A DNA stretch of 64,000 nucleotides from Paramyrothecium sp. XJ0827 (Eukaryota; Ascomycota; Sordariomycetes; Hypocreales; Stachybotryaceae): the NCBI GenBank assembly GCA_020881915.1, contig JAJFPB010000004.1, positions 3,038,001 through 3,102,000 on the forward strand, read 5' to 3'. Of this stretch, positions 35,543-38,273 are shown in pieces; the first letter of the stretch is position 1, and each line of letters begins with the position of its first letter. The position numbers and the translations under genes are program-made. Below the pieces are notes generated by a model. It had not been told where the DNA came from. It worked only from the letters and a program-made list of their open reading frames with translations, and ran no database searches.

Positions 35543-38273
35543 ATGACCCCTACACCTCCCTCCACTACCAACTCTTCCACCGGCGGTCGCTCGCCCGAAA
35601 ACCAGTTTCGGGTCGTCAGGAAGAGGAATCGCGTGCCGTTGAGCTGCTACCCTTGCCGGACAAGGAAGTAAGTCCAGATCCGAGATCCTTCCCGCCTGCA
35701 TGCAGCGGTGCTGACCATTTCTTTCCAGATTGTGAGCTTCCACTACAGCCGCCACCCCTTGCTCATCGTGTACGTGCTGGCTGACTTGTTGCAGGAAGTG
35801 TGATAGGAGCCATCCATGCAGTAACTGTACGAAGCGCGAAGGTCAGGGCACCTCGTCCTGCACCTACGCCGCGCCAGTTACTCGCAGGAAGAATCAAAGT
35901 CAAGGAGAATCGAGCCCTGATGATATGCAAAGCCGTATTGACCGTTTAGAAGGCTTAGTTCTTTCATTGATGCATGGCGGAGCGAATATAGACCCTGCCA
36001 CTGCCTCAGCTGCCGGCGCTGACGCGCCCGGTTCTCGGTCGGTAACTGACAGCGGCTCATCCGCAAAAATAGACGAAGATGCAGGTAGGGGAGACGGCGA
36101 TGGCAACGAAGAGACCGACGACGAAGACGACCTCGCAACATCTTTGGGCGTCCTCAAGGTCGACAACACCCAAGGCAAATCCATGTACATCGGACAGGAG
36201 CACTGGCACACCATACTTGCCGATATCGCCGAGGTCAAGAATTACTTCATGACGTACGGCAAGACGGAGTTAGAGACGAGTTACGAGCGAATGCGGTCCT
36301 CAAAACCAGCTACAGCCCGCGAAGGCCCGACATTGCTGCTAGGCGCCGTGCCGGCCTCTGAAATCGAACTACGTGCGGAACTGCCCCCCAAATCGACAGT
36401 TATGGCGCTCTGCAGTCGCTACTTCAACTCCATGGATAACGCGGTCAACATTATTCATGGGCCAACATTTCAGAAACAACTACAGGCACATTGGGAGGAT
36501 CCATCCAAGACGCCTCTGATGTGGCTAGGCATGCTGTATTCAATCCTTTGTATAGCAATCCTGAGCTACCACAAGGCCGGTGATGAGCCGCCCGAGTGGA
36601 AGGGTCGGGCGATGGACCTCGCGTCGGAGTATCGACTTCGAACCGTGCAGTGTCTTATCAAGGCAGATTATACGAAGCCGGCTGAGTACACCATCGAGAC
36701 TTTGCTGCTATACGTTTTTGGCGAGTATTCGTCTCGGTGGGACGCCGACCTTGGTATTTGGCTCATTGTGTCGATAATCAACAGAACGGCTTTCCGTATG
36801 GGTTATCACCGGGACCCGAAGTGGTTCCCTTCCATACCTCCGTTCCAAGCTGTGAGTTCAACACTATTTCTTTCAAGCCGCGCAGCTGCTCGCACAGCAA
36901 GCTGCCATGTTGAACAATGTCTAATACGATGACAGGAACTGAGACGACGAGTGTGGGCCATGGTTCGCATGGCGGACGTCGTGTTCTCGCATCAAGTGTC
37001 TTTGCCCAGCATGATCCATGAGCACGACTGCGATACAGAGCTTCCGAGTAACATTTTTGACGAAGAGCTCCAGCCGGGAATGAAGGTTCTGCCGCCTTCT
37101 CGACCAAGTACTGAGCCAACACCAATTGCCTACATGATCGCCAAAGCGAGACTCTGCAACGAATTGGGGAATATTCTGCAAGCGACCACGAAGGTTGGGA
37201 AGCCCGTGCACTACGACGAAATCATTCGATTCGATGCCAAACTACGTCAAATAATGCAGGAGCTGCCACCGCACTTGAAGCTGACGCCACTTGAGGGGTC
37301 TCATGACCCTGTCACGCTGATTATATCACGCTTCAATATGGAGATCCTCTACTTGAAGATACTGTGCTTGCTGCATCGAAAGTACATGACAAGAGCGAGG
37401 CAGAACCCAAGATACGCCCATTCAAGACGCAGTGCCATTGAAGCCTCGATGCAAGCACTAAACCACCTCGCGATGCTGCACCGAGAGTCACAGCAGGCGG
37501 GACGATTACGGTCCCTGGCCTGGTTCATCAAGTCCATCGCGACCAAGGATTTCGTGCTTCCTGCCATGCTCATCGTTTTGGACCTCCACTATGACAACTT
37601 GGCCGTGGAGTCGGGACAAGTCGACCAGCACGAAGGTGCCGAAATATGGCCACCCGAAGAACGGGTCAAGATGGTCGAGGCCGTGCAGACGGCTGGAAAC
37701 ATCTGGAAGGATTTAGCCCATACTTCCATGGTTGCTTTCAAAGCGGGCAAGGTTGTTGACATCATGCTGAAGAAGATTCAGTACCCGTCACAATCAGAAG
37801 CGGAATCCGCAGGCTCACGAACGGAGTCCGCGGCATCGGTACCATCATTGGTCGCTAGCTTTGGACTTGATCCATCGCCAACGCTTTCTCAAGACTTCAT
37901 GTCGCCGGCCAGTGTCCCTCCATCCATTCCCCCGCCCGGCTTCAACCAGCCGTTGGACGTCAGCGAGTCAAGTGCCTTTATGGACTTTGGCCTGTACCCT
38001 GGCATGAGCGCTGACTTCCAGATGGAAGGGCTGACTGCAACGGGGCCGCAGTCTCCCTTCTCAATGTTGGCAAACCTCGGCGGGGGAGTAGGGACAACCC
38101 AGGATGTCCCCACGAATCTTGATTGGGTGAGTCAACAGCACTCTTCAACTGTAAAACTAGCATGAACTAACCCGCTCCAGAATGCTTTCGAGAACTATGC
38201 CCAGATGTCAAACTGGGGGGCTGATCAGAGCTTCCAAGTCTACGGGACCGGGGAAGAGCCAGGTTCCACGTAG
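35543..38273 (+). CDS. Zn2Cys6 transcription factor with a probable 3-nt micro-exon
   Basis: Proposed exons are 35543-35667, 35729-35731, 35795-36851, 36936-38126 and 38181-38273, giving 822 residues. With the 3-nt exon ATT the zinc cluster reads C35-x2-C38-x6-C45-x5-C51-x2-C54-x9-C64, the canonical spacing, with R-K-L-K-C before the third cysteine. If positions 35668-35794 are taken as one 127-nt intron, the gap falls to five residues and the cluster is non-canonical. Downstream come a linker with an acidic stretch at about 120-145, and a fungal-specific transcription factor domain from about 190 to 600 (for example E-L-R-R-R-V-W-A, W-L-I-V-S-I). A Pro/Ser-rich, presumably activating C-terminus follows. 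Binding-site preference (CGG triplets) is known for the family. The regulated pathway is not evident, and no biosynthetic cluster surrounds it. Confidence 0.9.

Follow-up and report, generated by a model that had tools for sequence, protein, structure and literature searches.

Does the interval at 35668–35794 of the analysed window, the whole stretch of 64,000 nucleotides from Paramyrothecium sp. XJ0827 (genome of 51.8 Mb in 15 contigs), hold a single intron of 127 nt, or two introns that isolate an exon of three nucleotides? The interval interrupts the zinc cluster of a regulator gene, and the answer decides whether five or six residues separate the second and third cysteines. We conclude, with a probability of about 0.93, that it consists of two ordinary short introns around the 3-nt exon ATT, which would be old, constitutive and often mis-annotated.

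Gene structure and the zinc cluster with and without ATT

The regulator gene extends from 35543 to 38273 on the forward strand and comprises four introns and five exons including ATT. Exon 1 (35543–35667) runs from the ATG to the phase-2 AA of Lys42 and codes for the first two zinc-cluster cysteines. Intron 1 (35668–35728, 61 nt; GTAAGT...GCTGAC...TTTCCAG) is followed by the micro-exon ATT (35729–35731), which finishes Lys42 (AA/A) and provides two bases of Leu43 (TT/G), a residue between Cys2 and Cys3, and by intron 2 (35732–35794, 63 nt; GTGAGC...GCTGAC...TTGCAG). Exon 3 (35795–36851) contains the remaining zinc cluster (KCDRSHPCSNC...C), the linker and the start of the Fungal_trans domain; after intron 3 (36852–36935, 84 nt), exon 4 (36936–38126) codes for the remainder of that domain and the C-terminal part, and after intron 4 (38127–38180, 54 nt), exon 5 (38181–38273) ends with TAG. 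The coordinates proposed for the two introns and ATT in an earlier, sequence-only reading proved exact, and the GT donor, CTGAC branch site and AG acceptor that it assigned to each intron are present. The branch-like adenine is followed by 14 bases in intron 1 and 10 in intron 2, compared with 11 in intron 3 and 10 in intron 4, and the signals of the first two introns resemble those of the other two. Having its own acceptor and donor (CAG/ATT/GTGAGC), with a branch-like site in each flanking intron, ATT lies at the lower end of the 3–30 nt range of micro-exons.

The product has 822 residues with ATT and 821 without, as expected from the claim that skipping keeps the frame at the cost of one residue. 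A Pfam search of the 822-residue protein returned Zn_clus with 30.4 bits and Fungal_trans (PF04082, residues 250–470) with 61.1 bits, the latter being the middle domain that is usual, if not universal, in Zn2Cys6 regulators. The product is a predicted HAP1-like Zn2Cys6/Fungal_trans transcription regulator.

If position 35667 is joined directly to 35795, Cys2 and Cys3 are separated by five residues (C-x2-C-x5-C), as had been stated for a single 127-nt intron, and in a Pfam search of the resulting 104-residue N-terminal fragment the zinc cluster was not found. The 105-residue fragment with ATT matched PF00172 with 34.5 bits (cut-off 21), the sequence now reading RTRKLKC and the cluster C-x2-C-x6-C-x5-C-x2-C-x10-C. 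The proposed restoration of R-K-L-K-C and of the six-residue spacing thereby stands, and only the length given for the last loop had to be amended from nine to ten residues (TKREGQGTSS); ten is the commonest length, occurring in 78/97 listed homologues with a C-x5-C middle loop. According to the accessible text of PMC6471507, the Zn2Cys6 signature is C-x2-C-x6-C-x5..12-C-x2-C-x6..12-C, the C2–C3 spacing being always six per reports cited there; the product conforms to this signature only with ATT. Through the restored cluster, it is predicted to bind zinc and DNA.

These results bear on the reading in which all 127 nt form one intron, ATT is never included and the five-residue spacing is genuine, the cluster being divergent or degenerate. 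Both the lost Pfam match and the reported constancy of the C2–C3 spacing speak against it, as do the other clusters of this genome: among 40 sampled zinc-cluster places, 37 were complete in one frame and 37/37 had six residues, in a non-random sample (20 best and 20 low-scoring of 150 genome matches) that was picked with a Pfam model itself built on six-residue spacing.

Splice-site enumeration and paralogues

Single-intron models were enumerated with GT or GC donors at 35640–35799, AG acceptors at 35690–35834 and introns of at least 35 nt. Of 142 GT/GC–AG pairs, 10 gave an open frame and none gave six residues, which rules out one intron with other splice sites among these pairs. With the outer ends fixed, GT donors and introns of at least 35 nt, three two-intron solutions exist, and only the one that isolates ATT has an open frame. 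The interval was also dinucleotide-shuffled 100,000 times, its six opening and three closing bases being held in place. An exon of 3 nt, complete with donor, acceptor and branch signals, arose in 24 of these shuffles, one coding for Lys-Leu in 4, and any exon of 30 nt or less that keeps the frame in 130; since the signal definitions were set with the case already known, these rates serve as guides and not as tests.

Twin introns in which one intron is nested in a splice site of another (stwintrons) occur in Pezizomycotina according to the accessible part of PMC5639578, and two-step removal of such an arrangement would eliminate all 127 nt. This is scarcely credible here. Once 35668–35728 is removed, ATT directly precedes an intact GTGAGC donor, and the second step would therefore retain ATT; inspection of the sequence by eye showed that taking out neither of the two parts recreates a donor at 35667, although rebuilding of a splice site at the same exon boundary defines a stwintron, and full removal would again yield the five-residue spacing.

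A genome search for two cysteines followed by AA/GT in a Lys codon revealed seven places, compared with five for a reversed-pattern control. Five of the seven are zinc clusters, namely this gene and four paralogues (L029, L030, L033, L034), all of which were also recovered by protein similarity. The cluster of each of the four is interrupted once, by an intron at the same phase-2 AA/GT site as the donor of intron 1, and has six residues between Cys2 and Cys3, which is further evidence against a genuine five-residue spacing in this gene; intron 2 is missing from all of them. After the intron, they read KMRC, KLKC, KRRC and KLKC, and in the paralogue at C10:672286 the second exon starts with G-TTG-AAG-TGC, compared with A-TT/G-AAG-TGT in this gene.

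The phase-2 intron position inside the zinc cluster looks old in the subfamily. Because of the four paralogues and of protein traces in one Leotiomycete (see below), we infer that the family's old intron is intron 1 and that intron 2 would have been added three bases downstream of it, probably in the stem lineage of the Sordariomycetes other than Xylariales. An origin of the two as a tandem duplicate was set aside, as introns 1 and 2 are no more alike than shuffles, 51% of which matched their alignment score. Elsewhere in the genome, the open frames L055 (C14:296706-296963) and C14:83502-84008 each apparently contain two close Zn2Cys6 matches.

Homologues and traces of the introns in faulty models

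Homologues were collected from the best 120 of 1035, 428 and 532 matches in three protein searches, scoring in the first being limited to the 7994 candidates sharing most words; this gave 166 different proteins, clustered at 90% identity, the assignment to orders being looked up for five taxa. Among the 93 listed named Sordariomycetes outside Xylariales, 49 models had five residues (x5), 22 had six (x6, including P0016, whose cluster is broken further on), 5 read through an intron and 17 had a broken or missing N-terminus. The x5 models lack precisely the micro-exon residue. Six residues were found in 36/36 listed Xylariales and 17/18 listed Leotiomycetes, and the 19 listed proteins derived from contigs comprised 10 x6, no x5 and 9 without cluster, the x6 protein P0145 being nearest to Leotiomycetes. 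The ATT triplet itself is known from this genome alone, its presence elsewhere being deduced from protein models; a search for orthologous fungal DNA in prokaryote and viral collections gave 104 and 17 pattern matches and no relative.

The closest among the matches listed, P0001 of Paramyrothecium foliicola (Hypocreales, Stachybotryaceae), is 95% identical, and its model is x5, without Leu43. Its precomputed Pfam list contains Fungal_trans only, and the label 'fusarisetin A cluster transcription factor fsa6' is its source's naming only. Near relatives disagree on the spacing in Coniochaeta (P0054, P0125) and in Colletotrichum (P0043 vs six others), and KLKC is read in P0121, a close relative of the x5 models P0113 and P0122.

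The 49 x5 proteins match, on the surface, the orthologues with five-residue spacing and one intron that the sequence-only reading had named as evidence against itself, and they are also an argument for a genuine single intron. That explanation remains very improbable: the other zinc-cluster residues are strongly conserved in the homologues, and P0121 retains KLKC beside its x5 relatives. In line with the micro-exon, KLK occurs in 84/84 fully matched listed x6 homologues (85 x6 rows in the census, 84 under the stricter pattern).

On a protein tree built without the zinc cluster, the x5/x6 label changed 18 times over 91 rows. The tree, obtained by a quick search with 19/89 inner branches weak, comprised 68/71 named x5/x6 rows outside Xylariales, 9/36 Xylariales, 6/18 Leotiomycetes, 8/10 contig-derived x6 proteins and the window protein; P0034, P0047 and P0085 (all x6) were left off, having no anchor for cutting rows. 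For the 68 named rows outside Xylariales, 13 changes were counted, compared with a mean of 16.7 for shuffled labels in a control added later, and 2/200 shuffles were as low as 13. The label thus appears near-scattered and partly tree-following, and would not be pure annotation noise. Its tree-following part, which would suit a genuine single intron, may reflect shared annotation pipelines or, in certain lineages, an actual loss of one of the introns. Because of the 18 label switches and the absence of x5 from the 10 contig-derived clusters, most x5 models look like prediction errors, and missed micro-exons would explain them best, since a strongly conserved cluster is unlikely to switch its spacing so often. 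The micro-exon itself, its part in restoring the cluster and the expectation that gene predictors miss it are all well backed by homologues, paralogues and enumeration.

Faulty models retain traces of the introns. An odd residue precedes KC in 13 listed models and is R or S in nine (P0012, P0014, P0022, P0037, P0050, P0058, P0154, P0159, P0160), as expected if the acceptor AG, read as an AGN codon, directly precedes the last Leu base at the place of intron 2. In P0161 (a Leotiomycete) and P0060 (Colletotrichum), the sequence extends one codon further upstream and reads RLKC, as it would behind intron 1. The residue before KC is T in P0004 and I in P0005, where exon 1 seems to be extended before a join, and YV or CV follows RTRK in P0004, P0005, P0019, P0022 and P0154, matching read-through of a GTAYGT or GTGCGT donor.

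Two contig-derived proteins have the cluster in one unbroken frame. P0129 (80,275-base contig), which shares 81% identity with the x5 model P0073 over 401 residues, reads KLKC without interruption and diverges from its relatives just after FQA, where intron 3 lies in this gene; it therefore resembles genomic DNA whose cluster has no introns. P0121 (3,211-base contig), 84% identical to P0113, reads KLKC in an unbroken frame of 853 residues; short contigs of this kind would be cDNA or intron-free genes, and either way the presence of Leu is supported.

Further irregularities were seen in single models. P0048 (Claviceps digitariae) and P0070 (Ophiocordyceps camponoti-leonardi) read CRTRNNC, as a predictor would by taking the acceptor matching window position 35821 and losing half of the cluster. 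The Hypocreales-like P0058 (402,153-base contig) starts in apparent intron 2 and continues unbroken for 769 residues, which suggests a gene without introns 3 and 4. P0014 (Purpureocillium) is without Ala at the intron-3 junction (FQEMRRR vs FQAEMRRR) and carries additional residues close to the junction of intron 4, probably further signs of poor modelling of the gene.

Inclusion of the micro-exon and comparison with known systems

As a 3-nt exon has no room for binding on both sides at once, the spliceosome would remove the two introns stepwise by intron definition, and either order of removal would leave working splice sites. Inclusion of ATT is probably constitutive and required, because the DNA-binding cluster is unrecognisable without it; constitutive inclusion is also the simplest reading.

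A second isoform with a damaged cluster, as suggested earlier, might arise by skipping of ATT, and a switch could be built on it if the cell made a regulated choice between a form that binds DNA with six residues and one with five. The three nucleotides keep the frame, and Xlr2 of Trichoderma offers a precedent of another size. In this other fungal regulator, a micro-exon likewise lies within the Zn2Cys6 domain, was overlooked in gene models and occurs across the genus; it has 20 nt, codes for PCRRCE and is reported from RNA data to be regulated by glucose (PMC11121469, accessible text), whereas the present exon has 3 nt, codes for one residue and is known from sequence alone. Drosophila homothorax, also a transcription-factor gene, has a conserved 3-nt exon for which isoform-specific roles are reported; that exon, which undergoes alternative splicing and forms the start of an overlapping exon of 48 bp, lies between the MH and HD domains, whereas ATT lies inside the DNA-binding domain (PMC7392893, accessible text). 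Such a switch is nevertheless unlikely in this gene. Skipped forms (x5) are found in 0/10 contig-derived cluster proteins, the transcript origin of some being only surmised, the label changes 18 times on the tree, and in Xlr2 itself exons 1 and 3 were not joined by any reads (PMC11121469). Slightly more doubtful still is that the exon was kept through Hypocreales, Glomerellales, Sordariales, Diaporthales, Magnaporthales and Ophiostomatales, since the non-Xylarialean Sordariomycete stem, as a regulated one-residue on/off control of DNA binding.

Constitutive inclusion is therefore retained as the working reading, and the micro-exon is notable for its size, its place inside the DNA-binding cluster and the breadth of its apparent mis-annotation. 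If RNA confirms it, a conserved fungal regulator would contain a very small exon apparently common to several orders, which would explain the 71/93 listed models outside Xylariales without six-residue spacing; family censuses, domain searches and cloned 'coding sequences' that rely on such models would overlook the regulator or disable it. The gene would also be a clean natural case for studying how so short an exon is dealt with by an intron-defining spliceosome, and whether it acts as a burden or as a control.

No earlier report of this gene or of a 3-nt exon in a fungal nuclear gene was found among the titles and abstract starts listed from the open-licence literature, three of the listings covering 20 of 33, 12 of 96 and 12 of 407 papers. 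CZT-1 of Neurospora was considered as an orthologue and set aside, nothing in the accessible part of PMC4065252 tying it to this gene, and PMC8079791 and PMC10017718, matched as HAP1-like literature, concern other genes as far as their accessible text goes. In spread, the Xlr2 exon is described across one genus (PMC11121469, accessible text), whereas the presence of the ATT exon is deduced over several orders. CYP621A of Fusarium also has an ultra-short exon in a conserved motif, found by comparison and missed in annotation; it has 1 nt, lies in a P450 gene and is confirmed by RNA reads, and its omission upsets the exon phase, whereas omission of ATT drops one residue in frame (PMC12940212, accessible text). 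Finally, the HAP1/CYP1 sequence of the structures PDB 1qp9, 1pyc and 1hwt (RKRNRxPLxC...RKxKCD) aligns without a gap through the micro-exon residue, which is Val in HAP1/CYP1 and Leu in this gene.
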